Of a stretch of 44,074 nt of DNA, positions 1,549 to 26,499 are shown in pieces. The translations under genes were made by a program, and so were the position numbers. Origin of the DNA: Planoprotostelium fungivorum (lineage: Eukaryota > Evosea > Variosea > Cavosteliida > Cavosteliaceae); assembly GCA_003024175.1 (NCBI GenBank), contig MDYQ01000222.1:1-44074 (forward strand). The letters run 5' to 3'. The notes under the pieces were generated by a model. It worked only from the letters and a program-made list of their open reading frames with translations, was not told where the DNA came from and did no database searches. Position 1 is the first letter of the stretch, and each line of letters opens with the position of its first letter.

Positions 1549-1796
1549 CTGGCAGACAGTGGTTATGCGTCCAACAACGAGAAGGACGACAAGAAGGAAT
1601 ACAAGAGTGGAAAAGGCTTCAAGGAAGCTCACATCAAGAAATCCACAAGACAGCGAGGAAGAGTTGATAAACAGAATCGTCTAACGAAGTTTCATGAGCC
1701 ATGTCCATGTCATTTTCTCAACTGATTTTCGCGAAACGTCAAGATCATTTCAATGTCTTGAGATTGAACAAAGAAAGTCATGAAATACAAGAGAAG

Positions 1797-3516
1797 ATGC
1801 GAGCCATCCTCTCTCTTCTCGCTTTGTTCTGCCTGACCAGTGTCAAGTCTTTGAACGTCACCCTTCGAGACTACACTGTCACAGACGACAACAGCCTTCT
1901 GTGTGGAACTGATCTCAACAACAATTTGGTCGTCTTCTCGGCCACAAACGATCTGATCGTTCAGAACCTCACGGCTGATTCTTCTTCGTCCATCATCTCG
2001 GGAGATGGGCAGTGGATTGTTGTCATTCAAAATGAGACCATCAACTTCTACATCCGTCAAGCACAACGATGGACCCTCTTCGTAAGCTCTCCATTTCGAC
2101 CTCTTCTAATCGTACTTTAGACTTCTACACCTTTACTCTTCAATCATAGGTCCCTCTCCTCTATCTTCTTTGACAAGACCGGCTCTCGTCTGGTCTTGGT
2201 TACTGGTGAAGAGACGTATTTCTATTCCAAGTCTTCTACATCGAAAGACTACACCCTTTGGTCACAGAGGACAATAGACAGACAAGCCTCCAGTTTCAAT
2301 GGAGACCTCAGCACTGCATTCGAGTTGATAAACTCTTCTCTCTTCGTATCCACGGTTGATTGGGCCAACCAGAAGATGATCGAGTCGGTGGGCACCGCAT
2401 TTATGGAAATGTCTCATCTTCTTCAGACAGAAATCGGCGAGTCAAAGCAGGGAGGGGAATTTCTGGCCGTCAATTCAGCTGGAACCGCATTCACCTTTGC
2501 AGACCATCAGAGCCATCTCTACAGAAAGATGTGAGAGGAGATGTCCACTCCATTCTCATCCTCTTGCAGTTCAAACGGTTGGACCAGACAAAACATAGGA
2601 GATACTCTCGACGTCTATGGTTTCTCCGGTGACGATCAGTTCCTCTTCCGTCTTTCATCTGGACGACAACTATCTAGATATCTCGTCGGTGACTTGACAA
2701 GAGCTTATCTACCCCAGCAAGTGTGAGTGCTCATCACCTTCCTCTCTAAATCTTTTCAGTTTGCCATCGAACATTCCCAACCGTCATGGTCCTTGGCACG
2801 TCCATTCCAATTATGACGGAAGTCAAGTCATCTACGACCACATCGGAGTGGTAGACGAAGACGATGGAATCAGCCCCACACAGCTCACCATCCCATTCAC
2901 GCTCCACCAGGCTGGAGAGATCTGCCTGAACGACACTTGGTGCCAGTCTGATCTCAAATGTGGTCCCGGTCACTACTGCCACCAACTCAACCGCAGGGCT
3001 CAGCCAGACACGTACACTGCGTTATTCAAGGAATATCTGTGGGGTGAATACCGCGATGGTGAGGAAGATCTCACCTTCATGTGTTGATGAAGATCAGTGC
3101 AGTTAAATTTCGAGAGTCCAGCTCAGGTGACCTGCAACGTCGCAGGCTCGAATCCCATCGGAGTGCAAGGGTCAGTGTCCAACGTGTACAACAACACGAG
3201 AGTGCAAGTGGTGTATCACAACTCGACTGGCCTCTCTCGAGTCGTGGAGGCGGGGTACCTCAAAGCCGCCGCGAATTTCGTTCACGTGGAGCCGCTGCAG
3301 ACGGAGAGCAGGACGATTGAGTTCTGGCTGAGCTGCGTGTGCGTCGATGACTACGTGTCATCTGTTTCGCCCACGAAATTGAGTCTCGAGTTACCTGCGG
3401 CCACAAGCAGCACCTCAAGTGACATCCATACCGCACCGCCTACCCATTCAGAAAGTTCAGCCGCCGTCATCGGTATCACAACAACACTGGTCGTCTGTCT
3501 GTCTATGATGATGTGA
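1797..3516 (+). CDS. Secreted, probably membrane-tethered protein of unknown function
   Basis: Five exons: 1797-2081, 2121-2530, 2588-2722, 2760-3058 and 3098-3516, joined by introns of 37-57 bp. The start at 1797 is chosen because it opens a clean signal peptide (MRAILSLLALFCLTSVKS); an in-frame ATG at 1701 would add a polar leader. The mature part is rich in N-glycosylation sequons and has a cysteine cluster CLNDTWCQSDLKCGPGHYC in exon 4. The last about 45 residues are Ser/Thr-rich and end in a short hydrophobic tail (AAVIGITTTLVVCLSMMM), as in GPI-anchored or tail-anchored surface proteins. The alternating strand-like pattern of the first 300 residues could be a beta-propeller, but I cannot assign a family. 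PIG-Q, encoded in this window, acts in making GPI anchors of the kind this tail might receive. Confidence 0.75.
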
Positions 3517-3685: not shown

Positions 3686-6600
3686 TTATTGTATCACTCC
3701 GTAAGCCTCATAGCTTCGAGCATCTTCTCCATCATTCCTCGACTTTTCTCCCCTCTTGGTGGAGACAGATGACGCTTGTCTTCGCATTCTCAGCTTCTTT
3801 GCGATGTCGAGGAATCTTGGTCTGTCCTCTGTTTGTGTGCAGTCAAGCACTAGAGCTTTCACTCCTGTGTCCCAACTTTTAGTCATCATGACGGAGGATT
3901 CTCTTGCCGCCAGGTAACGTCCTGTCTACAAGCGTGCTGAGCAGATTTGTAAAAATATTTGGTTTCACCTTCTCAGATATGTCTTCTTGTTCGACCATCG
4001 ACCACAAAAGCAGTCCATAGCTGTACACGTCTGATGCTTTCTTGTACACTCCTTCTCTCCCTACCTCTGGCGCCTCGCTCTCTGTCAGCTCTCTTCTCGT
4101 CTCTGCTGTCACTCACTGTGTGCGGTCCCATCTGTCGCTGCTCTGCTCTGTCGCCTTCTGTGACAGCGTGACGCATGTTGGCTATCTTGGCTGTCACTTC
4201 TCCGCCGATCGCATTCAGGTACACCTGCATTTCGATTCAAAACTGTGATTCTCCGTCGTGGACTCACACTGTTGGCTGTGAGATGAGTGTGCACGAGACC
4301 TTGTTCATGGATGTACGTCATTCCCTTGGCCACATCTTCTCCTCTATTATCCTTTCAGTATCTGTGATGAGCCTCCTTTTCTCTCACATTTTCAATAGAA
4401 CATGTAAATCTGGCGTCTCTCTTCTGCCATATTCTCGCAGCGTTCCAGCGTTCATCCACTCTGTCACGATGTACCCTTCTGTTCTCTCTCTCAGTCTCTT
4501 CTCTTCTCTCTATCACGTCATCACACCTGCACTGTCTTGTCCCAGATACATCACTATCATCGGATGGTGCTGTCTCTGTCTCTGTCTCAGCTTCTATGTC
4601 CTCCTTCCTCTCTCTTCTCTCTCACCTGCAACATGGCAGCCTCTCTCGTCAGCTCTGCCTTGCCCCTTGCATTGACTGCCTTCATCACACACACTGCAGT
4701 CACGCCGTCACACTCTGCCTTCCATGTCTCTATGCCTTCTTCTTCTCTTTCCTTTCCTTCCATCTTCACTCTTCCTTTCATCTCTTCGCCTCCTGCAGAT
4801 AAATCGAACATAGTTTCACTCTTGGTCTGTTATACTGTCAGGCTTGTTTCTACATATTATCTCTTACCCCTCGTCTCTTCTGAATGATGAAGAGTAGAAT
4901 GATCGCGGATAGAATGACAATAGAGCCACCCGCAGCACAGCAGATGATGATGATCAGTGTCCTCGTTTGTATCCCTCCTTCATTTGCGAGTATGGCTCTG
5001 GTGTTGGCTGTTATCAGCCCAATCGAGAAGTTTGTGAGATGATTGCACTGACACACTGCTAGACGTGCCTCATCTAGGTAGAGATCACACCCTTCACGTG
5101 ACCATATCTTGTCCGCTTCTTTCCACCACTGACACACAGCTGTTCGATCTATCAGTCGTTGTCACAGAGAGTATCTGGATTCACTTTGGTTGGATAATGA
5201 AATATCATCGATATATCCCATAGTGATGTTGATCTTCTCTGTCACTCCTCCTATCTCTATTTCTCTTCCATTGCCATCGTACACTTGCACTCCTATCACT
5301 CTGCCTCTTCTGTTTCTTTGTTAACGTTCTAATTCACAGATATGTATACCCACATAGACTGATCATAGATGGACAGTAGGGGAGTCGAATCTACGGAAGA
5401 GAGTGCTACAGACACTATCTCTCTCAGTCTCTCTCTTTCGCTCATTCCTCTCACCTTGACCATATCCTGTCACTGTCGACACAGGAAGGCTGACAGAGCT
5501 GTTCTGACCCTCGATTATGTTCTCTATCACTGCTGAGACGTTCACACTCAGATTGTACGTCTGCAGGCTGATTGATGCAGAATTGGATGTATAGGTGAAC
5601 GTCTTAGTCGTACGTAACAGCGCTGTCATCACAACCGCTATCACTTCTACGTTCTACATTCATAGGTAAGTCATCCGCATGATATCCATATGAATCTTCA
5701 GGTTGCTCACTTGGTTGGACGAAGAATATCTCTTCAGTATCGACTGCAGCCTCATTCAATCATCATCGATCTTTCCATTCTCACCTGTGCATCATACGAT
5801 GAGATCAACGTCCTTTCATCGTGCAATAGCTCCAACGAACATGTCGTATATTGGGGTATAGAGCATGATGAATGATTGAGAGAGGTGAAACATGAGAGTG
5901 GATTGTCTAGGACAGAGCAAGCAGATGAGAAACCGCTGAGGCCATTCTCATCGATAAGAGTGAATGAGTTGCTGGATAGGTCGATGGATGTGAGAGAGGG
6001 GAAGTTCAGAGCGTTCAGGAAGGAAGGAATGGAGCCGGATAAATCATTGTCGCTGTCGCACCATCAGTACACTTCAACTAACGGTAGATGGAAGGTGAAC
6101 AGAAGATGATGATGAGCACGACATGTCGATTTCATCATGAGACATGATGAAGATTGTGTCATGATGAAAGGTGTTATCATGATGGTGCCGTCACGATGAT
6201 GATGAGATATCACGACCATGAGTATGATGAGATGAAGAGGAGATCACCTTAGATCTAATGTCTGCAGTCGATTGAGACGAACGAAAGAATTCGGAATCGA
6301 CCCTGTGATATTACATCCCTGCCGTCTTTCAGTCCCACGATGCAAATCCGAATGGATAACAACTCACACTGGCACGGATGTAAGTCAGCTGACTGAGAGA
6401 TTCGATGAACGATGGTATCTCCCTCTTCTCTTGATTTGAAGGCCGAAATGCCTTGCGCAGATTTAGATCCCTCAGGTTGACCATCATCTGTAGGAAAGAT
6501 AGATCTCCAGAGAGGGAGTTGAGGGACAGATCCAACAACTGAACATTCGAAGTCTGGCTGATCTGTCCTATGGTGCCGTTGAACCGGTTACGATTCAAGA

Positions 6601-7693
6601 TGAGCTGGACGAGATTCTTCATCCCAAAGAGCATCGGTAGATCTGAAGTGGGGACGAGGTTGGTTCCAAGATCGATGTACGTACAATTCTGCAGTGAAGT
6701 CCCGAAATTGCTCGGCAGCGAGCTGATCTGATTTCCATCCAGGTAGAACTGTTGCAGGTTCGTCAGACGCTGAGCGAGCCAAGAGGGGATGGTGGTGATG
6801 CCCATATCTATCCTCATCAGCTCAGTCGAGAGATGAGGCACCCACTTCGAAGGGATAGAGAGTAGAGATTAGAAGGGCCGGAGAAGAATGGTGGAACGGA
6901 TGGAAAGGTCATCTGAGTGTTCCCCACGTCCACATCGGTCATAGATGAATTGAATAGGGAGGCTGGCATCTCACCGCTCAATGGATTCCAACCCTTCCGA
7001 TCGTGAGCGGATGAGATGGATGAGATGAGATCTCACCACGCGAAACCATTGGATGGCAGAGCATTTATTAATGAACGAGATGTTACCAGTGAACCTATAT
7101 ATCCGTCATCTACTCTTTCTTCTGACGTTCACTCACTGATTGTACTGTATGTTGATCTTGCTCGGTTGAACCTGATCGCACCAGTAAGAGGGGACATCAC
7201 CCGTGAAGCCATTATTTGACAGATCGATCACAGTGAGATTACGAATGGTGCTGAGATCTGGCACAGCCGAATCGATCTGATTGCCCGTTATCGTCAGTTG
7301 TTGTAGACGAGTCAGGAAACGAAGAGAAGCGGGCAAAGGTCCTTTGACAGAGTTCATGATGGTCAAGGAGGTCAGATTGGTCAAGAGACCTGCAGAAATG
7401 AGGTCGACACGGGAGAGACAGAACACACCGATGTCAGAAGAGAGGTTGCCATTGAGCCCTTGCAGAGCCAGAGATGTGACTGTTGTGTTGCTGACATCGC
7501 AGTTTATGGAAAGATATCCCTTCGGATCGATGAAGGTGCAGGGCTGCAGACGATCAGATGAATAGACGGAGATGAGAGGAAGGCGACTTACCTGTGAGAT
7601 CAGAGCAGCCTCAGAAGGGCCTCCACCAGCTATTCTGAGATTGTTTAAGTGAGCACCTATGTTTCTTGAATATACCAGGGATAAATCGATAGC
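3686..7693 (-). CDS. Receptor: LRR, GAIN/GPS, TM, pseudokinase (copy A)
   Basis: Many small exons read from about 7693 down to the stop at 3686. Order: a plant-type LRR cap (PCTFIDPKGYLSINCD); about ten LRRs, for example LTVIDLSNNGFTGDVPS and SDNDLSGSIPSFL; a GAIN-like region (TALLRTTKTFTYTS, EKINITMGYIDDIS); a GPS motif CQWW..W..GCDL...VCQCNHLTNFS at about 5020-5135; one membrane helix (LIIIICCAAGGSIVIL) and basic stop-transfer KRRG; then a kinase-like domain with the beta-3 lysine (VCVMKAV), TEWMNAG, YIHEQGLVHTHLTANS and APEVGREGVYKKASDVYSYG. HRD is replaced by HTH and DFG by ANM, so phosphotransfer is unlikely. The GPS normally cuts itself between His-Leu and Thr, leaving the ectodomain bound non-covalently. 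I found no signal peptide; the first visible exon starts inside an LRR-like segment after an acceptor, so the 5' end is unresolved or lost. One LRR join near 6845-6870 is also unclear. Confidence 0.75.
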
Positions 7694-7729
7694 GATCTAT
7701 CGTATACTAGACGATTTATCAACTCCAAA

Positions 7730-8170
7730 AGCGGCTGGGCCAGTGGTCTTCAAAACGGCCACTTTGAGGGAATGTGTCGACGTTAACGAGACTCAAACTG
7801 CCTACAGGAAACGCATAGAATGCTGAAGAGATAAAGGTAAGACTCTGATGATGGATGTCTCGCATCATCAACCTCGTGGGTATCTGCAGTGAGGAGGTGT
7901 ACGTAATATAATAAATAAGGTGATTAATTTCATTCACTGTCGCACATCCGGACTCCGGTTGTCAAGGGCGGGTTGGATCACTTTACAAAACGCTTAAGTG
8001 GTTGTGGAGGGCTGGATCCATCCCTTCCTCGACTGTAGATTAGATCCACTGCCATCGAATCTGTACATCTGGTCAGTCCATTTTTGTCGATGGAAGTGAA
8101 GGAGATGAAAATTGAGCAAGTTGAGAAAAGAAGGAATCGATCCACTGAGAGCATTAACACTATATGGGTT
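7730..8170 (-). pseudogene. Decayed LRR exons of a receptor copy
   Basis: On the minus strand around 8085-8165 one frame reads NALSGSIPSFLNLLNF, closely matching NDLSGSIPSFLNALNF in copy A at about 6000-6050. The similarity continues in another frame (FTSIDKNGL against SLTSIDLSSNSFTLIDENGL), so the reading frame is broken. A second piece near 7735-7810 (GSLSLVNVDTFPQ) resembles GSLDVLATRFPK of copy B. The pieces are not in the normal domain order with copy A's N-terminus. They look like remnants of a third copy or of a rearranged 5' end. Confidence 0.5.
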
Positions 8171-8515
8171 CGGAGACGATACACTACAAAATCGGGTGAA
8201 AGCGAACAAAACGGATTTAGCCTGCGGAACGTGTTTTCTTCCAATTCTATGACAGTTCGCCACATCGTGTCCATTAGGCCCGGGTGTGACCACTTTTCGC
8301 TGGGCTGTGTAATGACTTCCGCCGTGGTTAATCTCATATTTGATTTATTGAGTAATGGAGCTCACGATATGGCTCGGTGGGGTGTTTCATTTGCCCGTGT
8401 GTGAATCAATCATTTGTCGTGACATGCACAGTTCCAACACGCGTGTGACGTTCAGGTTGTTAGGCGTTTCAGACGCGATAATCATCAGAACACAAACAAC
8501 AGTTGGCGATTCGAG

Positions 8516-11500
8516 ATGCCACACACAAGACTCGCTCTGTGTCTTCTCTGTTTTCTCTTTTGCGCATTTGCACAAGGGACATCTACGCTGGATGTCCTCA
8601 GAAGGATCTGGATTGATGCAAATGGCCCCCTCATTCCTGCAAACATCACCAATGTGAGTGAGGTCTCTGTTCGATCAACTCATTTGAAAAGCCGTGTTCG
8701 ATGCCAAGCACGTGGGTAGGATGGAGATGCGATGCAACGTCAAGTATCGTCACTTCTATTTCACTCAGTACGGAAAGGGCATACAATGGAACCCTCTCTC
8801 CTCTCATCGGTACCTTTTCCCTCTTTTCAATCTGATGCATTTCAGTCTCCTTAACTAATCTCACTTCTCTTTCGATCGGATCTTGGTCTTTCATAACTCC
8901 GCTGGGTGGAGTTAACTTGACTGTGTTGGGTCAGATGGCTCGACTGAATACTCTAACCCTGAATGGCGTCAATCGGGTGATCGGCTCGGTCTCCGACTTG
9001 ACCTCACAGAACCTGAGTAATTTGAATTTGATTCGGTGTAACTTAAGTGGCACCTTTCCGGCCACAGTCTGTAACCTGAGGAATCTGAAGACCCTCAACT
9101 TACAATCTAACCGGTGGGTTTATAGAATCAAACGAAAATTGAACCCGATACAGATTGAATGGGACACTGGATATCGCCCGAAATTGCTCTCTTTGGAATA
9201 CTAACATCAATCTGGTGAGGAGAACGGCGTGTGCTTCTACTGCGATGGATTTTGTGATCGTGACATCGTCAACAGGGGTACAATCAATTCACGGGGGAGA
9301 TACCTTCATTCCTCTTCAGCTCTTCCTTCAAAACCGTCGATCTAAGTAGCAATAAGGGCCTGACGCTCTCTCCTCCCTTTTCTTTCCCTCTGGCATACAA
9401 CCTGACCTCCCTCACTCTCAACAGTGAGCCATCCTTCTATCGCGTGCTAGGTTGAGACGTGACAGGTTTCAACTGGAAGAATCTGAGTGTGACATTCTTC
9501 ACACGGCTACCCAATCTCACATCCCTCTCCATAGATAGCACCTCCCTGCCCTTGTCGGATTACCTCAGCGTGTTGACGAACATCAAGAGTCTCTCTTTTC
9601 AGAAGAATTCCCTCACTACATTGCCATCGATGGTGAACTTGAATCTCTCTATCTTGAACATCAATGGCAACAATTTCAATGCGACCTTACAAGATTTTGT
9701 CGGGTTATTACCCGCATCGCTGACACAGTTATTCATGGATGGTTATCGAGGTGAGAGGAGTGAAGAGGAAAGAGACAAATGTGTACAGGTGTCGGTAGTC
9801 TGGATGTTTTGGCGACTCGTTTCCCCAAGTTGAAGATTTTATCAGCCAATGCGTTTCCATCTTCAAAGAACAACCAGACTTTACCCTCTTCGTTCGACAA
9901 TCTTGGTCTGACTTCGCTTAGTCTCTCGGTGAGATAAATCGGTTCTTGAATGTCAATTGATCGAATACAGAATTGGAATCTTGTGGGAACCATTCCTAGC
10001 ACTTGGTCGAACCTTCGCAACCTCACTCAATTAGATTTAAGGTATGTTCGCTTACGATAAATGAATGACAGAGATGTCAGTAACAACAATCTGACGGGTG
10101 CCATACCTTCTTTCTTCGGTGTCTCAACCATGGGCCAACTCACTTCTCTGAATCTACAGAATAACAATTTTACCTCGGTGGAGGATGGAGCCATCATCGG
10201 GCTGAAGTTGGCCACATGTAATATCACGCAGAATCGTCTGCCCTGCTATTCCAATTTCATTCTCAGAGATACTTGTCTCGTCAATCAGACCCTTTGTGAG
10301 GCAAGAGAGATCATCTCTACGTTGTACGGAAACGTATCGATATCCAGTTCAGACGGAAAGGTGGGACGAGAATGACCGATTATTACTGAGACACGAACAG
10401 AACATTCTCAGCACGTATTCTTCATCGAACGAGGTGGGATGAAGCGATGGACCACGACTGAATGATACTAGATTGTACAAGTCATATCAGCCGTGGTGAC
10501 GGCCCTCTTGCGAACGACATCGACGTTCACGTATTCTACCGTGAATCTAACCGTGGATCTGCAAACCTACGATGGAAAGAGTGCTGCTCTAGTCAATGCG
10601 AACCGTAATTTTTCTGTCGACATTCCTTCGTCGGCTGTTTCATATCAGAAAGGTGAATCGATTTGATTTAAATATGTTCACGGTGAATAGCATCCGTCTG
10701 CCTTTCTTCTGTCGTATCTACGTCCTCACTATCCATCTACAACGAGTCAATGTGAGTCGAAAAGAATCATAGCTTCATCCAAATTAATGAAAATTATACA
10801 GAAGAGGCAGATTAATAGGAGCGCAAGTGTACGATGAGAAGGGAAGAGAGGTAGAGATACAAGGAGTGACAGAGAAGATCAACATCACTATGGGCTACAT
10901 CGATGATATTCCATCCAATCAAAGTAAGTAGAACACAGTCGATTTTTGCCACAGCAGAGACTGAGAGAGAACAGAGGCAGTGTGTCAGTGGTGGAACGAA
11001 GGACAGAGAATATGGTCATGTGACGGGTGTGATCTACACATAGATGAGGTACGTCTGGCAGTGTGTCAGTGTACCCATCTCACAAACTTTTCTATCGCCG
11101 TGGTTGCCACTTCACCGAGCGGAACGAGTACAAGAACAGCGATCATCATCGCTGTATGCTGTGCCGTGGGTGGACTATTTCTGATCTCTCTGGCTTCTGT
11201 TCTCATCTACAGAGCTTACGCTCGACGAAAGGTGAGAAAGAGAAGAAAGAGGGAATACTAAAGAGGGAAACAGTACAGAGCGATGGAAGATATCGGAATG
11301 GGATCGATAGTGACAGGAGTGCAGTATGAAGAGAAGATAGCAGAGAGCAAAGAGAGCCAAGTGTGGAAGGGAACGCACAGAGAGACGACAGCAGTGGCAG
11401 TGAAGAAGATGAAGAGGATGGAAGCGAAGAGATTCGGAGAAGAATGTCAGCTGATGAAGGTGAAAGGACGAACCAAAATACGCCACCGATATCATAACGA

Positions 11501-12284
11501 AGGAAAGAAAGAAAACTGAGTCGACTACAGTCGTTACATCATCCAAATGTAGTGCAGTATCTCGGACACAATATGGCAGGTGAGAAGGTGAGAGGAGACG
11601 AAACTGAAGGAGAGATAGAATTGTACGTGATGACAGAATGGATGACCGAGGGAAGCTTACAGGACTACGAGCGATCCCATTCAATGACCATTCGATCCAT
11701 CTATTCCATGTGGGTCATCATCGACTGGAATGAATTTTTGATGAGAGGAAACAGAGCGAGCGATGTGTGCAAGGCCCTCTCTTACATCTCATCAATGGGT
11801 CAAGTCCACACCGCCGTCGTCGCAAAGAAGGTTCGTACCGTGTCGGGGAGACGAGATTCAATCGAATGCAGATTCTCATTTCTGGGAGGGAAACGGTGAC
11901 GGCCAAGTTGGCTTGCGTCTCTTGCCTTCGATCGGAGGGTGAACCGGTGAGAGAAGGAGAAGTTGGCTGTCACACGGTGAGGATTAGAAGATGATGTCGA
12001 TGATGATGAGGCATCAGGCACCGGAAATCGTAGGGGAAGGGATGTGGAGATCCAGCGGACATGTTTGGAGCGTTGGAATATTGCTGACGGCGATGACGAA
12101 GAAGATGGACCTCTACGGAGGTGTCAATGGAACAGATTCGATGACTTCATCTCTGATAGAAGAATGCACTCAGAAGGAGACGACAAAGAGACCCGCTCTG
12201 TTCGAGATCATGAACAGGATGATGAAAGGGGAGAAGAAGGTCATTTACAGCACCTACCACGAATCAGACAACAACTACCAGTAG
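8516..12284 (+). CDS. Receptor: LRR, GAIN/GPS, TM, pseudokinase (copy B)
   Basis: About 20 exons with introns mostly 36-45 bp (for example 8654-8691, 8810-8845, 11460-11530). It starts with a good signal peptide (MPHTRLALCLLCFLFCAFAQG) and an LRR cap (PCSMPSTWVGWRCD). LRRs follow, such as LTSLSIDSTSLPLSDYL and DLSNNNLTGAIPSFF. The GAIN-like region has TALLRTTSTFTYST and EKINITMGYIDDIP. The GPS is CQWWNEGQRIWSCDGCDLHI...VCQCTHLTNFS at 10980-11096. A membrane helix with AVCCAVGGLFLISLASV and basic ARRK follows. The kinase-like domain has AVAVKKMK (beta-3 Lys), SLHHPNVVQYLGHN (joined over the 71-bp intron), TEWMTEGSL, YISSMGQVHTAVVAKK, HQAPEIVGEG and HVWSVGILL. HRD reads HTA, DFG reads ACV and the glycine loop is absent, so it is a pseudokinase. 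It probably senses an extracellular or surface ligand and signals by scaffolding. Exon phase at the join just before the GPS is my best fit. Confidence 0.82.
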
Positions 12285-12539: not shown

Positions 12540-15519
12540 TCGCATCATCTGTAGAATGTAGTTCATCTGACGCCATCCCAGATGAAAATGGAGGAGAGGG
12601 GCTTTTCAATAAGAAAGGATTCTTATTCTTGCGAACAAAAGTGATGCAGAATTGGAAATGCAGATGGTTCAGCCTGGATGGCATCAATCTCCGATGCTTC
12701 CAGGTGAGGACAAGACTTTTGCGACGGACCTTCTGATTCAGACAGAACGATCGAACGACACAAGCATTGGATGTCATACCTCTGTTTAACCCCAACACCA
12801 ACAAGTATGCCACCATCATATTTATCAAGAAGGATCGGTGATGCCTCGTACACTCTGTGATTCTTCTGATCGAGACAACAGAAAAGACCGAAAGAACATG
12901 TTCGCATTGGCTGTAGATGGTGTAGGTCAACACATCTTCTCTGCCAGTACCCCGACAGAGAGAGAGAATTGGATCAACTCCATCAGTGCCGTTCTAGCTC
13001 AACATCAGAAGACCAACGACTTACCTCCAACACCTGTGAAGGTGACATGTCAACGAGCATCCTTTCTCGCTGACCTCTTTAGCTATCGCCTGCTCTTCTA
13101 TCACCCAAACCAAATCGATCGAAACACAGTGATTACGCACTATTAGATGATGATGGTGATCGAGATGATGAACGACAAAAACTGACGGATATTTGAAGAA
13201 CAAGAAGGGCAGTCGAATCATCAAGAATCGAACAGCAAACTGATGGCAGGGTACAACGACAAGATCAGTCAGATCCTCAATCAAGACAAGTCAGATCTGC
13301 AAGAGAAACAGAAGAAGAAGAAGGAGAGGGAACAGATGGAAGAGGAGAAGAGAAATGATGACGTAGATCGTTACGTTCAGATGGAGAAGAAGAAGATGGA
13401 AGAAGAGAAGAGAGAGGAAGAGAGAAAGAGACAAGAGGAAGAGAGGAGGAGAGAAGAAGAGGAGAAGAAGAGACAAGAGGAAGAGAGGAGGAGAGAAGAA
13501 GAGGAGAAGAAGAGACAAGAAGAAGAGAGAAAGAGACAAGAAGAGAAGAGGAGAATCGAGGAAGAGAAGAAACAAGAGGAGGAGAGGAAAATTCAGGAGG
13601 AGAAGAGGAGAATGAGGAGAATTGTAAGGATTCAGAGTCTATGGAGAGGTACGTGATGGTCTCCATCATTCATCGTTTCTTTCAATAACAACATATCGTA
13701 ACAAAAAGATGGTAATTGAAATCAATGATTCTCCACAGCAAGAATCGTTCGTAAACATTTCCCTCGCCTGATCACCGTCTACAAACGTCGACAGAAGATC
13801 GCCCAAGAATTGATGTCGACCGAACAATCTTATCTATCCTCCCTTCAGACCCTCTCTCAGGTATATCCCCTCCATCCCTCCACCTCTCATCTTCACAGCT
13901 CTACATCGCTCCCCTCTTAGTCAACAACATCATCGATGGAGACACCTGCAGAATCGCATTCTCTAACGCAAATTATCTCGTCTTCTTGCACAAGGAGATA
14001 TCGAAGAAGATCGAAGAGAGAGTCAATTCGTGGTATCCTCAGCAGAAATTCGGAGACATATTTGTAGAAGCGGTGAGTGCTTATTCCGTGTCGTTCTGAA
14101 TCGTACCAGTTGCCTGATCTCAAGAACTTTTATTCACAGTATGTCGTTAATTATAACAAATCCATCGCAACGGTTAAGAATCTGATCAGTACAAATCCAG
14201 CGTTCCAAACGTTCGTGGAGGTGATCATCTGATGATCATTCCTTCTATCTTCTCGTTTCGATTCATCATGTCTTACACATGGATCTGTGGAAAGGAGAGA
14301 ATGAACGGAGATAGGATTGTATGAAAGATCCAAGGGGAAACGATCTACACTTGACGGATTATCTGATCATGCCCGTACAAAGGTTGCCCAGATACGAGAT
14401 GCTCTTAGCCGTACGTTTTTCTTCTCTCTCCACACTGAATCGAACAGGATCTGTTGAGAAATACACCGCAGACGGCAGAGGATAAGACGCTATTGGAATC
14501 GGCTCTATCAGGATTGAGAGAAGTGAACGCATTCGTCAACAATCACACGAGAGAGGTGATCTTCGGATGCATCGATTCGTGTATTCCAATGGGTTTTCGA
14601 TGAAATTTCATTTTTAAATGTGTACAGGTACAATCGATGGAGAGAGTGCTACACGTACAGAACAAACTGAGTGGTGCGAAGAAGAATTCGAATCTGTATC
14701 AACCAGGTGAGATGAATCGATAGGAAGGAGACGAAGAGACTGAAGATGGAAAGGAAGGGAATTGATCAGAGAGGGACTCTTGATCATGATCGGAAAGGCA
14801 GGGGAGAGTGAGAGGACTGTATTCCTCTTCAACGATTCCGTCATGGTTTCCAAGAAGACGTGAGATACACCATCCTATTTCATCCCTTACACCACCTATT
14901 ATGTCTTTCATTGTCAGTCATCTCATCTTGTTGAATGATATATCCATTCTGATTTTGCGACAGATCGACCAACAAGAATGTCACTCTCAAATACGATTTC
15001 AAGGTGAGATGATGTCTCACGTTCGATCCACGCTGAAAGAGTAATCAGGCAAACATTCCTCTAAAGGGTGCGACCGTCGTCATGGACTAGTGAGTGGATG
15101 ATCACTTCATTCAATTGAATGAAACAGCGTACCGAACAAATTGGATTTCGTCAAGAGTCCGAGTTTGACCGACACAACCAAAGCGAAGGGATCACCCAAG
15201 GTGAGCCATCCCAACTTCTAACATCTCATCGCCTCCATCATCCACGAGCGTCTCATCTTCCTTCATCTCAATTGACATGACCTAGTTGGGAAATGGAGAG
15301 AGCCACGTGATCGCACTCATCACAGCTGATGGATCAAAATACGTGTTTCGAGCATCCAATGCCAACGACAAGAAGGGTTGGTATAATGCAATGGACTCTG
15401 CCATAAAGTGAGAGGGAGGAGAAGGTGTGAAGACTGACCCTTACAGAGCTTTACCGAAAGAAGCAGCGTCTGCTTCTGTTCCTAGATTCTCTCTGTCGAG
15501 CTCGAGAGACGGGTTATAA
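12540..15519 (+). CDS. RhoGEF with PH, charged helix, IQ, DH and PH domains
   Basis: An N-terminal PH domain begins GLFNKKGFLFLRTKVMQNWK and ends with the typical helix ERENWINSISAVLAQ. A long helix of Glu/Arg/Lys repeats follows at about 13310-13610, then a calmodulin-binding IQ motif (RIVRIQSLWRGTARIVRKHF). The DH domain starts QELMSTEQSYLSSLQTLSQ, includes ISKKIEERVNSW and the core LTDYLIMPVQRLPRYEMLLA, and ends near NNHTREV. A second PH domain reads REGLLIMIGKAG, TVFLFNDSVMV and ends DKKGWYNAMDSAIKAL. Stop TAA is 15517-15519. DH-PH proteins load GTP onto Rho-family GTPases and steer actin; the IQ motif suggests calcium control. The true first exon is not resolved: the first PH exon opens in frame without an ATG, and a start around 12450-12525 spliced in by a short intron is likely. 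About ten short introns interrupt the gene. Confidence 0.85.
13439..13520 (+). repeat. Tandem 42-bp purine repeat inside the charged helix
   Basis: The block coding for EEERRREEEEKKRQ occurs twice in a row, almost without change, at about 13439-13478 and 13481-13520, with a shorter variant after it. It is pure A/G on the coding strand. Unit number could change by slippage, altering helix length in 14-residue steps. Confidence 0.7.
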
Positions 15520-17510: not shown

Positions 17511-20500
17511 TTATTTCATCTTGTCCATCGTCTCTCTCATCACTTCCATGAAGATCGGATCCTCCCGACTCATCTTCTCTAAATATCTCTTCACCATCTC
17601 CTTCTTCTCCTCCCTCAGTCTCTCTTCCATCGTCACGTCCTGTCCCTCATCAACATCAAATCGACGATGCGATCTCACCTCATCGGCCCATCGAACGAAG
17701 GAGACATCATCGTTCCACGCATCACCCGACCACGATCGAAGTGTGTCGATGAGTTTGGCTCGAGTGGGAAGCTGTGCGGGTGGATGATTCGATGTCATCT
17801 TCTTGTAGATGCTCTCTTCCATCAATCTCCTCTTCAATCGATGATAGAAGTACTTTCTCGATTCGATCCATGGGACTACCTCACGGATGACACCTGTTGA
17901 TGTCATGATCACATCATCGATGCGATCGATCACCTTTGGCCTTCATCCTCCCCGGAGTGTCTTGAAGATCAGCAAAGGAGACGGAGACTCTCTCGTAGAT
18001 GGGTAAGAGGTGTCTCTCTCTCTCCTTGATGCTCCTCTTGATCTCTTCCTTCTCTCCCGTAGATGACATCAACTTGGCATCCAGATCGATGAGCACATCA
18101 TCCAATCGATGCATCGTCCTCAGTAGTTCGGGTGTCTTGTACTGCATCCATCGTCAGACATCACAGAGACATCGAATCTATGATGTCACCTTGATCTCCA
18201 CAATACCCTCGGGCTCCAATATCCCACCCCTGGCAGTGTCATCACTGTACATCTCCATCATCTCTGGATTGATGCTGGGATCCACCACCACCCACGCCCC
18301 TCCCCTCAATTCTCCACCGGGGGGAATGTACACGATGATGGGTTGGTTGTACTCCCTCAGGCTGTCCACGATGTACGATCCAAACTTGAGGATCTCCTGA
18401 TACAAGTCCCTGAGACCACCACTGAAGCCCCTCCAGTTGGCGAACATGATGAGGGGTAGACCCTCTCCCTTGTTGAAGTCGCGAATGGCCTGGGACGTCT
18501 TGTAGGCAGAGTCGGGGAACCACACCTTCTCTCTGTCAATTTCTTTCTCTCTTTCGTTCATCGTTATATCGATCTGTCAAGTATACAACTATGAACGAGG
18601 CAGTGATCGAAAAGATATCTAATCATATCATTTCATGAATAATAAGGTTAGATATCTCGTGCACACCTGACCGGCTTGTTTGATGATTTCCTCGTGGGAA
18701 TCGGGGGAGGCTGGATCTGCAGGCTTGACGAGATCGACCGTCCTCGTTTCCACGGCGACGACACCTACGGGGATACCACCCAATCTGGCTCTACCTGTCA
18801 CCACCGTTCTGGCCCATCCTCCCATGCTCTCCATGAAACTTCCCTTGTCGAAAAATCCAGAGATCCACTCATCTACATCGACGTCAATTTCTCAGATATT
18901 TCTCGGATATCTCTCGGATATCTCTTCACCTTCTTCCGTGAATCTTCCGGCCAGCATGTGTCGTGGATCGTATGGAGATTTCGTGGGAACGAATTGGATG
19001 TTCCTTTCGATGGGATCCACTGTATCGATGATGGGAAGGGGTCCTGTCTACATCAGTCGACGTTGTAGAGAAGAGACCATCACCTCCATTGACTGAAGGA
19101 ACGAAGGAAAGCCAGTTGACAGACTGTACGATGGCTTCCATTGCATCATTGGCCACCAAGTGTGAGATTCCATTGGCGTACATGACTTGGGTTCCTCCCA
19201 ATTGTAGATTCGAAGAGTACACGTTGCGTCCCAAAACTGGAGATTTCAACTTGAATTTTGGGACGTTTCACCTCACCTTTGTTGAGAGCGGAGGCACCAG
19301 TGAGGATGATGGGTCCTCTATCTTGTATCGTTCTCTGTCCCAATCTCACTAGATAAGCTCCGATGCCTACTGTCCTCCCCGTGACAAAGGTCAAGGTGAA
19401 TGTCTCGTTGTAGGCCAACGATGTCTCTCCGGCGATCTATCGTGATGTCATACCCTTCGAATCTCATGATATCTCCGGACGAAGGTATCATGAGACACTC
19501 ACCATGGCCGAACCCTTCAGATTCTCCACACCGAGACCGTCTTGTATGCCAATGATGTCTTTGATCATCCACCTCCCGTTTCCAATGTCCACTGCCTCCA
19601 CCGCCTTTCCCTCTCGGTTGATATCCCTGTACTCTTCATCGTTGAGGTAGAGGTAATTGTATCCCATGTGGGGGAAGAGAGGATCCACCCAATCGACTCT
19701 GAACTTGTTCATGACATCGCTGGCTAAACCAATCCTCGCTCCACTGTTGGCTGCCACGTAGATCCTAGGAATCTTCTCTTCCCTCGCCCTCTCTGTCTCG
19801 ATGTGAGTCGTGATGGAGGACATGTACGATGTCACACCGGATGCCTTCTTGAAGAGGGTGTCCTCGGGTACACCGAAGGAGCCGGATTGGAAGGTGATGT
19901 CGTTGGCGATCACGATGATGTCTCTCCCGGATGGATACTCGGGTGTGTACAGTGTCATCCTCCACGCAATCATACCCACTCTGTTCTTCCCTACCTCCCT
20001 CTCGATGGGCTCGATGACATCCCTCTCTGCGTTGTACTCGAATTCGGTCCATCGAATGAGGGTCTCGGGGATCTTAAGAGCAGTTCCCCTGTCTCTCCTC
20101 TCGTGGATGTACTTCTTCCACTGGGTGAGAATGGCTTGTTCGAGGAGTGTGGGGTAGTCGTAGACGTAGAAGGTGTTGTTCTGTCTCGCCGTGTGTCTCT
20201 TCATCTTCGTCATCGTCAATGGATGATGTTCCACAGGGGAAGTGAAGGATGAAGAGACATGGGACGGATCGTTATGATAGAGTATGGATGGGATGCATCG
20301 ATGAATGTGGATGTGAGATCACCTCCAAACGATCGGGTACAGAATAAGGTTCAGAAGGATCTCTTCCGTTCAAGAGACTACTGCCAAAGATAGATTTCAT
20401 CGAGATCTTCTTCGTCATCGGATCTTGCACTTGCATGTACAGATCGATCTCGAATCGATACCCCGTTGGATTCGTCAACACGAATCGAAGAAGAGGTCCC

Positions 20501-23500
20501 TGCTTTCCTAATCCCAACAGTCTCCCTACCAACTCGATGCTCGATACCTGAAGAGGTCACTCTCCACGTCATCGTGGTGCATCACCTGACACTTGTTCAG
20601 CCTGGCTCGGTACTTGTTCGTCAGGTTTCGAATGATGTTCTGAACGTCTTCGGGTCCACTGAACTTGACCATGTTCAAGAATCTCATGAATATACGATTG
20701 TTCCACGTTTTCTGTTCCATTCAGTCCTCTTCCAACGGATCGTTTCTCTCTTCACCTTGAATTTGGGGTTACCCTGTGCGACTTCGATGGCCGATAGAGA
20801 TTCAGAGATCATGTTCTCTGCCATGGCAATGACATCCATGTCAGTGGCTGACAGATTGTTACCCGCTGCCTTACTCTCTGGATGGGGTGTCTGTGCATCT
20901 CCAGTGTATCCACACCGAATGGCAGCGTGAGCGAAGAAACTCGCGTGACCTTGGATCGATCTACAACGAGTCAGTGGGGTATTGGGAGATCTCACTGACT
21001 TTTCTGAATTCTCCTTGGATTCTCCGTAGTAGATGTGAATCTGTTGATTCTCGTTGGGGACGACTTGTATGTCGTAATTAGAGAACCTTCGCAGCTCTAG
21101 ATTGGATGCCGTTGGGGGGTCGATGTGTCTGTACAAGAGGTGCTCGTTGTAGTTGAATCGATCTCTGAACGTGAAGAATTTCGGGTATTGTCCGTACTAT
21201 CACGTTCAGTGATGTCTTTGGAGATATCATGGAGACGTTACCTTGGTGATCATGAATGTCAATCTTCGCACTCTGGATGTTCTGAGTTTGATGACGTGAT
21301 CTTGAGACAGAGAGGTCAAGGTCTTGCTGATAGATTCGTCTGATTCCATCCACTTCATCTTCCCATCGTCCAAGATACAGATCGTAACGATCTACTTCAT
21401 CATCAATCTCTCATCACACCATCATAGAATGATGACATGAGACATCATGTAATTCATCACCTGACTTCTCACTGGAAGATCATCCAATATCTTGTTGAAA
21501 CGATGATGAGAGAATAGATTCGATGGATCGTTGATGACTCTCATGGAGCCATAAGAGAACTCTTCTTGTTGGTTGTGATTGTGTTGGGGGTGATGCATGG
21601 GAGAGTGTTCCATCTGTGCGAGAGAATCATCCGATACCACACGGGTCATCTGTGATTTGGCAAAGTTGCTCTTCTCTTCTTCTCGGTCTGCCGCCGGATC
21701 GATGGGTTTGTACGTCCAGTGTCCCTGTGATGTGTCATCGAGTTTTCATCCAATTCTAAGAGGATTCGTGTGATGGTGAAAGAACTCACTATGACAGTTC
21801 CGGTTTCGGTTGCGTTGACGGATAAGTCTTTGATTTCGAATGCAGCGTACGATCTCCTCACGTAAACCTATTCACAATCATTCCATTATAAGTCTTTCAA
21901 TATTATATAAGAGTTACAATCGAGATCGATGAGACGAACGTACCTCCACACAAGCACTTCTGACGGCTGGATCAGAGTGCAAGATCATGAGATTGGTCAG
22001 CACATCGAAGATGGCATCTGATGTGGTGCTCAGATTCTCCAAGTTTCCTGGCTTCAAGATCTGATCCTCGATGCTGGCGATTCTTCTCTCGAAGGTGGGC
22101 ATTCGACTCTTGATGAGAATGGATCGACACAAGTGTGTCATCACGTGGTGATCAGTGGCCGTCAGATCAGACAGTTGTTGGATCAACGGAATGTAAGGCT
22201 GTACTGAACATCAGCGATCACCATGGAGATGGTGTGACGTCATCACCTTGAGTATCATCAATTTGTCTGAGATCCTGGATAAGTCTCCAGACTGCCTGAG
22301 AGGAGAAGTGGGATGAGATCGATTGACATGATCGGGAACAGGTGAACCAGATCGAGAGAGGAAACCAGTCTCCTGCTCGTGTTGGTGATGCTGGTGGGAG
22401 ATCTCTTTGAAGAGGTAGGAGATCAATCTACAACGAGTCAGAGGGTGATGGACCATGTCACGTGATCACTTGGCCTTGAGGTGGATGTTGTTGTGAGAGA
22501 ATTCTTGATCGAAGACAATCTCGGGGTTATCCTGACGCAGCTGAAGGATGGACTCTTCACGGTTGATGCCAAAGTTTCTCTCCACATCGAGGATCTTTTG
22601 CAGCATACCATTGATCACATTGTGGTAGTACTGTTCGTTACCATCGGAGAAGTTTTGGCAGATGATGATCAGTGGTTCCAAGGTCACCAGTAGCTGAGAG
22701 AATATCAACAACCTCGTCGTTGAGATATACGTGTACAGTGGATCAGATGTACTCGATGACAGGTGTGTAGAGGATGAGAAGAAAGAATCACCTGTGATCG
22801 AACACTCTCGGGTGCACTTTCCATGTAGTGATGGATCTCATTGAACAATGCACTGCCAGAGAAGGGAGAAGGAACATCCGTCATATCTTCCAATTCAGCC
22901 TATGCAGGACATCAATTCGTGATGACATGACGGTATGATATCGTACCTTGTAACCATCGAGGTAATTGTTGATGGTCTCCACCAATGGTTTCGGTAGCTT
23001 CGATGAGATCCTAGACATCGTCTCCTGGCATTCCAACAGCGGCACCTCTGGATTCTGACATCAATCAGCAAAAACTCACAGAAAATTGTCCATCACCATC
23101 AACTGCTGGAGTAATACGTCGACGGTCTCATTGTGATTGGGAGTGGAATAACCTTGTAAGATCTTATCGATGGTGGATATCGTGTCCCTCAGTATCTGAT
23201 TCGGCTTGTCTCCCTTACTGATCGGTGGTGGCATGTCCGGAATACCTTCCTCACAGATGTTCGTCTTCTGCACTTGCGATGCGTCCTCTGTGAATTTTCA
23301 GCGAGATCTCCTCGAGATTTCGACGTCTCACCCAATTGTAATGTGGCGACGAGTGAGCCAGCGGACAGAACGGAGCCCTCGCTGAGGAGAAAAGTGATGA
23401 TACCTGATTCTTGCGCCAGGAGAGGTAAGTACATCTTCATGACTTCGATTTCAGCGTAAGGTGTTCCCTTCTTGACCAATGCACCGTCTGATACGAGATG

Positions 23501-26094
23501 TCTGACTAATTTTCCCGCCGTGCTCGACTTCAATTTGGTCGGATCGTATTCCGTGGTGAACATGCAAGTCCTTCCGTCCAAGATCAATTTGAGACCTGAA
23601 TCCGTCAATCTACAACGATGTAGATGGGCTCACCGTTGGATGTTTCGGAACCGTAAGCGACGTGGCTCTTACCCCCCAGCATGATCAAGAATCCACCGTC
23701 TCCGAGAGCTCTGATGCCTCCCTCCACTCTCGTTACCGTATCACGCTTGGAAGATAACACCAATGAATTTGGACCTTCATCCATCAGATGACATCACTGA
23801 TATCACTCACCGATGAGGATGGAATCGAAACTGTACTTCGTGTTGAGGTAAATCAACTCGATGACGTCCTCGTTCTTTAAATATTCCTTCGATGGAACTT
23901 GTCCTCGGTCTGTTCATTCTTCAGTTGATGTTCTTCAATCGATGTGTTATGAGGATGGATGTGACTCACTGAGGAGGTTGATGTATTGTTGTCTTCGATT
24001 GGCAAAGTTTCGAAAGGATGAGTAGAAGGCACCACAGAGGACGACCAACCAACTGTCTAGTGTCTGTTCCACTTGGATGTGATCTGCGATCAATCGATCC
24101 AGCCACTGTGTCGTCACTCGATTACTCTGTCTCTCATCAATATCATCCATATCATCCATATCATCCATATCATCCATATCATCCATATCATCCATATCAT
24201 CTTACAATATCTCCACGAAGAGACATCGCTCATCATGATGACATCGATCTCACCTTGAAAGTGTCCGTTTCGATGAGATAAGAGACGTAAGCCACAGGGG
24301 TAGAGATGTCACCACGAATGGACAACTCTTTCAAGGCGATGAACAATTCTCTCCTGGCGGATTCTCTGTCGTCTCCATGGGAGAAAATGTGTCCAAACTG
24401 TGAATCGGCATACTCGTGCAGACCACCCCACGTTCCCACAGAGAAATAGCCCCACACTTTGGCCGTAGATCGGAAGGTCAATTCTTGAATGCCTCCGCTG
24501 GTTGGCTTGAAACCCTCAGCCGGATTCTCTCCCGTAATTCTCGCTGCCACCACGTGACCTTGTACTGTCAGAAGAGTTTCATTCGAACAGAAGCATCACC
24601 CTTTGGTGGTCTCCTCTTGGCATTGGAGAAATCGATCGGAGAATTTCCCTCGGGAGATTCGTTGTACAACCTCCGAATGTCCGATATCCGATGGAGCGGT
24701 ATTCCCATGGCAACGTTCAACTGGGCCGCCGGAAGATTCACGTCCGTGATCAACTCCGTGACGGGATGCTCCACTTGCAGGCGAGGATTTAATTCCAAGA
24801 AATAATATTCGTTCATCTCGGGGGAATAGAGGTACTCTACCGTTCCCACACCGACGTAACTGGACGTAACGTTTCAATCGAATGCGATGAATAACGGCTC
24901 ACCCGACTTCCTTTGTGATTCGTATGGCCGCAGCTTCCATCTCTTCTCGAATGTCTTCTGGAGCGATGATGGCTGGACCCTCCTCTATGATCTTCTGATG
25001 TCTCCTCTGAACGGAACAATCTCTTCCGTACAATGCAATGGCATTTCCTTTCTCATCGGCCAACACCTTCATCGCATGTCAATCATGATGATCATCTCAT
25101 TCGTGATGGAGGAGTAGAATGTGGAGACGAAACACACCTGAACCTCTAGATGACGACAGTTGGATAACATCTTCATGATAAAGATGGGTGAGCCTGGTAC
25201 CTGCACCGAGTTATTTCTAATTCGATCTGTATTCTCTCTCACCTCTCCTTGCACTTGTCTGAAAGAGGATTCGATCTCACTGTCCTTTGTCACCTGTTAT
25301 CGTCAGTCGACATGGCTCGTTGTAGATGGCTGTGGCCGTACCTTTCGGATACCCTTACCACCACCACCTTCGGAAGCCTTGATCATGGCTGGATATCCTA
25401 TCCGTGCGATCGCTTCGAATGCCTCTTCCAGCGTATGTACACATGCCGATCTATACAACTGTCTCTCGTTCATCATCGTCTCAATAGAAATTCATGTGGA
25501 TGAATGAATCTCACCTCTTCTGATATCCCATCTCGGTTATAATTGAGATTGAGATGGGATCCATTCCATCCCACACAATGGACATTGGCCGATTGGGCAA
25601 TAAGAGTGGAAGCAATCTTGTCGCCTAAATCGTGCATCGCCTTCTCTGGTGGACCAATGAATGCAATGTTCGTCTTCGATAATTGTAATGGTAGCCGGGG
25701 GTTTTCTGATGCATGTCCCCAACCCGCCCATACGGCTTGAACCTTCCTCCTCTCTGTCGCGAGTTGATAGGCAACGCATTTCTCGTGATATAATCACACC
25801 TCCGATTTCGACAATCAGGTCGACGTTGGCATAGTTGTTCGCGTTGGATCCACCGGTAACCTCTTCCACCTGGTCGGCCATTCGAATGTATTCCGCATTG
25901 ACTCGCAGGTCTTCCGGTGTGGCCATCACCACAAACTGGATGATTCTCTCATCTCCAAACGTCTCGTATGCCCACTTTCGAATGGATCGAATGGCCTTGA
26001 CAGCGGCGATTCCGTTGTTAGCTATCAGAATGGAGCTTACTACATGATGACCCTCCCTTTCTCTGACATAATCGGATAGAGATGGATAGATCAT
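17511..26094 (-). CDS. ACC1: Acetyl-CoA carboxylase, eukaryotic multidomain
   Basis: Start ATG 26092-26094, stop at 17511; over 20 introns. The biotin carboxylase part opens with [20 protein letters not shown] and [20 protein letters not shown], holds the ATP-binding [19 protein letters not shown] (about 25370-25400) and [18 protein letters not shown] (about 24770-24800). The biotin carrier has EVMKM at about 23435-23455, whose Lys carries biotin. A long central region follows (about 20600-23300). The carboxyltransferase N part (about 18600-20260) includes [14 protein letters not shown] and [12 protein letters not shown]. The C part (about 17900-18560) includes [22 protein letters not shown] and [10 protein letters not shown]. 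The enzyme makes malonyl-CoA for fatty-acid synthesis and elongation. No organelle presequence precedes the conserved start, so it is probably cytosolic. All key motifs are present and the length is normal for the family. Confidence 0.95.
24142..24195. repeat. 9-bp minisatellite, six units, inside an ACC intron
   Basis: ATCATCCAT repeats perfectly six times, with partial units at both edges. On the minus (coding) strand the unit is ATGGATGAT. It lies within the intron at 24127-24253, which is about three times longer than most introns here. The exon before ends IETDTFK and the exon after begins [12 protein letters not shown], matching the continuous family sequence, so the repeat is spliced out. 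Confidence 0.85.
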
Positions 26095-26099
26095 CGAGA

Positions 26100-26499
26100 A
26101 TGAGCTGGATCGCGGTCGCTGATCTGTCTGGCTACGCTTGAGGAGAAGACACTTCTTTTCCGAGGAAGTTGCTGGTTTTCTCGGCTTATTACATAAGTAA
26201 ATCGAAATCTCAGCTCCGGACTACGGGTGGTTTTTCCGTTGTCTCGGATAGATTGATCCGTTACTCCTCTCAGTCGCCCACGTCACATCACACATCATCA
26301 CCCTCCACACAAACGTTGTACAAAATCTCATGTCTATTCCACTCTTCCTCTTCTGTTAAGAATCTGTTGCATTCCGTACTGGTTTCTCTGTGTGGACCTG
26401 TCTGGCATCTTCTGCCTGCAAGTGGCTGACTGGTTTCACGCCCGGTCCTCCCGTGATATAATATTTGAGCGTTCTACCCGGCGAATAGATCTGACACCG
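26100..26499. other. Intergenic: ACC promoter and PIG-Q 3' flank
   Basis: Open frames here are short and lack family features. The stretch separates the ACC start (26094) from the PIG-Q end. It should contain the ACC promoter and 5' UTR; I see no clear TATA element. A further terminal PIG-Q exon cannot be excluded because a GTGAGT donor-like sequence overlaps the last visible codons. Confidence 0.4.

Follow-up and report, generated by a model that had tools for sequence, protein, structure and literature searches.

What kind of receptor arises when a GPS autoproteolysis motif, a mark of adhesion G-protein-coupled receptors (aGPCRs), stands before a single membrane helix and a kinase-like domain? 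This question is raised by two paralogous genes, here called A and B, in the stretch of 44,074 nucleotides that forms positions 1 to 44,074 of contig MDYQ01000222.1 of Planoprotostelium fungivorum (assembly GCA_003024175.1, forward strand; hereafter the window). The answer that we favour, with somewhat better than even confidence, is that both genes represent a large family of single-pass receptor pseudokinases containing a GAIN domain, which would be cut at the His-Leu/Thr triad (HL/T) and would signal through phosphotyrosine and SH2 proteins. A sequence-only reading of this DNA had proposed the architecture; as far as domain order, fold and pseudokinase state are concerned, that interpretation is supported.

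Regarding the domain order, Pfam searches of the kind which that reading had suggested place all three components over their cut-offs in both genes: GPS (cut-off 22.5 bits) reaches 32.3 bits in B and 38.5 in A, LRR_8 (27) reaches 45.1 and 60.8, with several leucine-rich repeat (LRR) families in both, and PK_Tyr_Ser-Thr (23.1) reaches 83.2 and 85.6. The GPS letters are CQWW..WSCDGC..CQCTHLTNFS in B and CQWW..WSREGC..CQCNHLTNFS in A. The LRR-helix-kinase-fold order of LRR receptor-like kinases is present in both genes, and the NCBI models P0001 (gene B) and P0007 (gene A) vary in some exons yet unite the LRR, GPS and kinase exons alike. After the GPS, no seven-transmembrane (7TM) domain is present in either protein, one helix being followed by PK_Tyr_Ser-Thr, and a Pfam scan of both proteins returned no PKD channel or REJ region. 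The claim that the GPS leads into one membrane helix and then a kinase-like domain in both paralogues is therefore confirmed by Pfam, by the NCBI exon joins and by the helix seen by eye. This combination can already be seen where Pfam matches have been precomputed for public proteins, 8 of 10 relatives having both GPS and kinase; the exceptions are P0009, a partial protein lacking the kinase, and P0010, whose model has no GPS match.

The same linkage was counted at fetched GPS loci, which are part of the GPS sites of the genome. Of 41 GPS rows, some of which are one place seen twice through overlapping loci, 38 show kinase-like exons after the GPS and on its strand; the other three rows have at most 512 bases of DNA left. 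Kinase-like exons are also present at all five additional loci that carry a variant GPS. The count is partly circular, as 14 family members went into the kinase profile, eleven of them from, or encoded at, the fetched loci. In the paralogues L029, L033 and L036, one open frame runs without a stop from the GPS through the helix into the kinase N-lobe. An artefact, in which separate genes or GPCR pieces had been fused by prediction, would find room in the many short introns and in gene models built from DNA alone, but the single open frames and the recurrence of the order make it highly improbable, and it is disfavoured. That 7tm_2 is unmatched genome-wide also speaks against it, though weakly, because the search controls gave nothing either.

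The region preceding the GPS had been described as some 120 residues resembling a GAIN subdomain, and a structure prediction had been recommended. The AlphaFold2 (AF2) model gives a GAIN fold, with a helical part and a beta sandwich around the GPS, and has fold matches. The predicted structure thus supports the assignment; the length, however, needs correcting, since the region spans some 190 residues and three helices are predicted in it. Of the two outcomes that the sequence-only reading had named as refuting it, neither appeared: LRR/GPS and kinase exons are kept together in the NCBI gene models, and the GAIN-like fold is present in the prediction. In a phmmer search of the PDB, the stretch between the end of the LRR and a point beyond the helix aligns with ADGRG2 (E 3.9e-7, residues 23-217 of the 228 in the query), as well as with other aGPCRs, and no part is better conserved between A and B than GAIN-GPS (62%).

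The cleavage triad is intact in both genes, and cutting at HL/T is most likely, judging from the sequence. Most of the 39 sampled sites were picked by a pattern with a fixed Phe that allowed Thr or Ser at P1' and left P6' free; P1' is Thr in all 39. The segment after the cut reads T-[NS]-F-[ST]-[LIVF]-[GQASR], P6' being G, Q, A, S or R at every site and never Leu, and it does not match at any of the 39 sites the animal tethered-agonist consensus TxFAVLM (PMC12716839, of which, as of the other papers cited, excerpts are used). The earlier idea of a tethered peptide next to the membrane is weakened by the missing agonist Leu and by the lack of a 7TM domain downstream. Having no 7TM domain to act on, this segment has probably been retained as the final strand of the GAIN domain, not as an agonist. 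The TNF[ST] right after the predicted cut (window 11082-11093, and in many members) is also an N-glycosylation sequon at P2', where Asn occurs at 28 of the 39 sites.

The kinase-like domains had been called pseudokinases, and the alignments agree. Gene B aligned with Src has HTA for HRD and CVS for DFG; gene A, aligned with TYK2, EGFR and CTR1, has HTH and NMR. HRD is found in none of the 14 domains of the family alignment and in none of the catalytic loops readable at 37 distinct places, three of which keep the catalytic Asn, and its replacements are many (HGR, HTA, HTH, HGN, DNI, DYR and others). DFG occurs at none of 26 readable sites. As a control, HRD is read in 7 of 9 readable rows from the ten best PK_Tyr_Ser-Thr matches of the same genome. 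In the PDB, the A kinase is matched best by TYK2, whose other stretch in this alignment, taken to be JH2, reads HGNV. Loci L029 and L033 have a catalytic loop HGN, like this one of the two TYK2 stretches aligned with A.

When the kinase blocks were compared codon by codon with those of six paralogue loci, the ratio of nonsynonymous to synonymous divergence (dN/dS) came to 0.17-0.28 for B. For A, where two of the six comparisons are saturated, the four with a defined dS yielded 0.28-0.37. The least saturated pair, A and L052 (a locus that overlaps L049 in the genome), has a dS of 0.44 and a dN/dS of 0.28. Since these ratios are low, the kinase domains appear to be maintained by purifying selection. 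They also make it the least probable account, and a disfavoured one, that these genes are decaying receptor kinases, a pseudogene cloud left by a duplication burst. The uncertain 5' end of gene A, a stop within one genomic GPS match (contig C61) and several partial NCBI models would fit such decay, but GAIN-GPS as the best conserved part of A and B, and a cleavage motif intact at 127 places, would not.

Those places were found by searching the genome (36.9 Mb, 471 contigs), which makes the two genes part of a large family. Exact matches to CxCxHLTxF number 127 genome-wide and those to its reversed control 1, so that the motif is not due to chance. A PF01825 search scored 150 of its 176 first-look candidates, and all 150 exceeded the cut-off, one of them having an internal stop. 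As near-duplicate contigs (C120/C5 and parts of C1/C196) inflate these totals, genes A and B are assigned, on these matches, to a family given as over a hundred in P. fungivorum. Near-identical receptor loci on different contigs (L016/L024 on C1 and C196; L011/L012 on C120 and C5) probably reflect duplicate or haplotype contigs.

Within the family, identities of different parts disagree between pairs: P0003 shares 91% of the sampled ectodomain and 38% of the kinase with P0006, 44% and 86%, respectively, with P0004, and 75% of GAIN-GPS and 32% of the kinase with P0007. Ectodomains and pseudokinases have thus probably been swapped around a conserved GAIN cassette. Beside or instead of the LRR, P0018 carries a TIG domain over the cut-off, and P0012 and P0013 have weak B_lectin matches below it.

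Concerning the output, a tyrosine lies within the last nine residues in 13 of 15 unique locus tails that reach the end of the kinase profile, and near the end in 10 of the 11 family proteins whose returned sequence includes that end (P0001, P0003-P0008, P0010, P0012 and P0016). It is often preceded by an acidic residue or Asn, as in NVYVEQ, SDPYSQIHI, DEYQT and DNNYQ. The genome has 79 SH2 and 43 protein tyrosine phosphatase matches, counted per exon, and HRDLAARN is the loop of at least one kinase (L041). For comparison, 22 protein tyrosine kinases and 48 SH2 proteins are given for Acanthamoeba (PMC4053784), and 4 and 18, respectively, for Physarum (PMC4758236).

From these features, a mode of action can be proposed. 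The ectodomain (LRR, elsewhere LRR with TIG or a weakly lectin-like head) would bind a ligand or a surface outside the cell. During passage through the secretory pathway, the GAIN domain would fold and, most likely, cut itself at HL/T, after which the ectodomain would be retained without a peptide bond. A ligand or a pull could then alter or remove the ectodomain, and this change would be relayed through a short stalk and one helix to the kinase-fold domain, acting as an allosteric platform that does not phosphorylate. The most likely output is that a separate kinase phosphorylates the C-terminal tyrosine and that an SH2 protein docks there.

Several results weigh against this proposal, starting with the GAIN domain itself. 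When the GPS is removed, a 12-sequence profile of the upstream region matches no aGPCR in the PDB; when it is compared with the GAIN domains of two aGPCRs, one shows no similarity and the other matches weakly, though in register. Because GPS-masked searches fail to recognise it, sequence alone is insufficient to call a GAIN domain, and the claim relies on the predicted fold and the GPS. In the full-length model, the kinase part is unusable (predicted local distance difference test, pLDDT, below 50), and the whole receptor family is known here from genes and predicted structure.

An intact GPS is also no proof of cutting, since the fold matches include BAI2, described as uncleaved. Alternatively, the GAIN domain might be a rigid juxtamembrane spacer that folds and stays uncut, leaving an ordinary uncut LRR receptor pseudokinase. 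Some GAIN domains do stay uncut, one GPS cysteine has been lost in five sampled members (L013, L025, L031, L036 and L038), and the Leu of the tethered agonist is absent at P6'. But a mere spacer would presumably have no need of His-Leu-Thr, and P1' is invariably Thr even though the picking pattern permitted Ser; the five cysteine variants keep HLT as well, as do the 127 exact motif matches. The uncut spacer is therefore considered unlikely, if the most serious of the alternatives. In the variants themselves, CQS or CQT stands for CxC and HLTNF is kept.

The loss of catalytic residues is not uniform either. Asp occupies the HRD Asp position in 2 of the 37 loops (near-identical copies reading DID), and the DFG Asp is kept at 16 of the 26 readable sites; given both, some members may have residual kinase activity. 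WNK and some other kinases are active with displaced catalytic residues, and the domains could be likewise atypical and active, all the more as the beta-3 Lys is kept, by eye, in most of the 14 aligned domains and B scores well against the active Src. Both window genes, however, lack the HRD Asp and the DFG Asp, the catalytic Asn is rarely kept, and no compensating residue was identified, a systematic search for one lying outside this analysis. Such activity is thus judged improbable as the general state of the family.

Regarding the tails, L034 and one L027 frame have no tyrosine (another L027 row may run into an intron), and P0013 lacks it in its NCBI model, while the splice model at the same place, L019, ends in SYQA. 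Two of six ordinary-kinase tails (L046 and L048) carry a C-terminal tyrosine too; the residue is thus enriched rather than specific, and this control result slightly lowers the odds of the proposed output. The docking of SH2 proteins by the tails is suggested by a correlation between tyrosine and SH2 repertoire.

Compared with known systems, the family resembles aGPCRs in its predicted GAIN fold, its GPS just before the membrane, its HL/T triad and its exchangeable ectodomains, LRR being among the domains listed in aGPCR ectodomains (PMC12716839). It differs in having one helix and a kinase-like domain in place of 7TM and in the lack of Leu at P6' in the sampled sites. It is also amoebozoan, whereas the GAIN-7TM module is placed in stem holozoans; the complex aGPCR N-terminus including GAIN is said to appear holozoan-restricted and the GAIN domain itself to be older, in a study with P. 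fungivorum among its proteomes (PMC12716839). In amoebozoan family-2 GPCRs, P. fungivorum included, GAIN is given as not detected in the excerpt of PMC10445921.

Outside the aGPCRs, GAIN/GPS is also found in polycystin-1/PKD1-like and sea urchin REJ proteins (PMC13197933), PKD1/PKD1-like proteins being called the only other known GAIN family in the excerpted text of PMC11697300; genes A and B differ from the PKD1-like type in having no PKD-type region in the Pfam scan. LRR receptor-like kinases of plants and protists, reported from Amoebozoa as well (PMC13091385), and their pseudokinase members share the LRR with N-cap, the one helix and a kinase fold of tyrosine or tyrosine-kinase-like type; here, a GAIN cassette is added between LRR and membrane, and HRD is missing in all 37 sampled places. 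The GPCR-kinase fusions of oomycetes, amoebozoans and choanoflagellates (PMC12716839) likewise set a kinase-type domain on a membrane sensor in protists, the sensor being 7TM there and one helix with GAIN, joined to a pseudokinase, here. Pseudokinases of the JAK JH2 type (TYK2) have HG in place of HR, as do L029 and L033 here; unlike TYK2, the present proteins are transmembrane receptors with no second, catalytic kinase domain in the chain (Pfam scan).

No description of an LRR-GAIN-helix-pseudokinase family was found in the literature on GAIN and pseudokinases, Protostelium kinases or LRR and related subjects, mostly in papers available without subscription. The sequence-only reading, too, had known of no described family with such an order, and this one is apparently undescribed. 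More tentatively, and well short of an even chance, it may represent a third GAIN lineage outside Holozoa, with over 100 self-cutting receptor pseudokinases that shuffle ectodomains and pseudokinases on a GAIN cassette, signal through tyrosine and SH2 and perhaps recognise prey, the last idea coming from the description of the species group of P. fungivorum as a fungivorous predator. In aGPCRs and polycystin-1-like proteins, where GAIN is discussed (PMC13197933, PMC11697300), its effect is hard to separate from that of the tethered agonist on the membrane helices. If cut, the present family would show what GAIN cutting does without a GPCR, as well as a GAIN module serving receptors outside Holozoa. 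In addition, a large natural set in which ectodomain and pseudokinase are independently exchanged could help to reveal how a dead kinase relays a signal.

Table 1. Features of genes A and B, in window coordinates.
Feature	Position	Strand	Content and basis
Gene A	3686..7664 (5' end approximate)	-	LRR, GAIN-GPS, one membrane helix, pseudokinase
Gene A leucine-rich repeats with N-cap (PCTFIDPKGYLSINCD)	5850..7543	-	Pfam, gene model; ends approximate
Gene A GAIN region, including GPS 5021-5137	5021..5850	-	GPS position, alignment; start approximate
Gene A CQCNHLTNF; predicted cut between bases 5036 and 5035	5027..5053	-	Pattern match
Gene A single membrane helix	about 4881..4960	-	By eye
Gene A pseudokinase; HRD to HTH, DFG to NMR; Tyr near C-terminus (SYEAYGVIQ, then stop)	3700..4826	-	Pfam, alignments; ends approximate
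Gene B	8516..12284	+	Signal-like N-terminus, LRR, GAIN-GPS, one membrane helix, pseudokinase, C-terminal Tyr
Gene B LRR N-cap (PCSMPSTWVGWRCD) and leucine-rich repeats	8692..10250	+	Pfam LRR_8/LRR_4, gene model; ends approximate
Gene B GAIN: three predicted helices, then 12 strands; GPS 10980-11096	10250..11096	+	AF2 model, fold matches; start approximate
Gene B CQCTHLTNF; predicted cut Leu/Thr, between bases 11081 and 11082	11064..11090	+	Pattern match
Gene B single membrane helix	11139..11211	+	By eye; within GPS exon 10975-11231; long helix 660-697 in full-length model
Gene B pseudokinase; VAVK Lys kept, HRD to HTA, DFG to CVS	11310..12262	+	Pfam, Src and family alignments; ends approximate
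Gene B C-terminal Tyr-Gln and stop (ESDNNYQ, then stop)	12276..12284	+	Sequence, family tails

Both genes were modelled with a small splice model, corrected by hand and compared with the NCBI models, and the gene ends proposed earlier at 3686 and 12284 match the splice models. A search for homologues with gene B identified it as P0001, hypothetical protein PROFUN_13684 of P. fungivorum. It has 18 or 19 exons (19 in the splice model), introns of 36-71 bases and 991 amino acids (950 in the NCBI model), with a hydrophobic N-terminus followed by the LRR N-cap; its junction 11710/11756, placed by hand, misses a GT-AG border by one base, and the uncorrected model and NCBI read this stretch as coding. 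Gene A, P0007, bears the NCBI name 'putative LRR receptor-like serine/threonine-protein kinase' (1021 amino acids), and its first exons are uncertain in the splice model.

Elsewhere in the window, the minus strand carries a phosphatidylserine decarboxylase exon (1003-1680), biotin carboxylase and carboxyl transferase exons that are probably one acetyl-CoA carboxylase gene (19488-26220) and a 3'-5' exonuclease exon (38383-38886). On the plus strand are a neighbouring gene whose product, hydrophobic at its C-terminal end, would be secreted or membrane-bound (1701-3516, a model of about 553 amino acids), a PH domain exon (12790-13146) and an RF-1 release factor exon (37900-38298).

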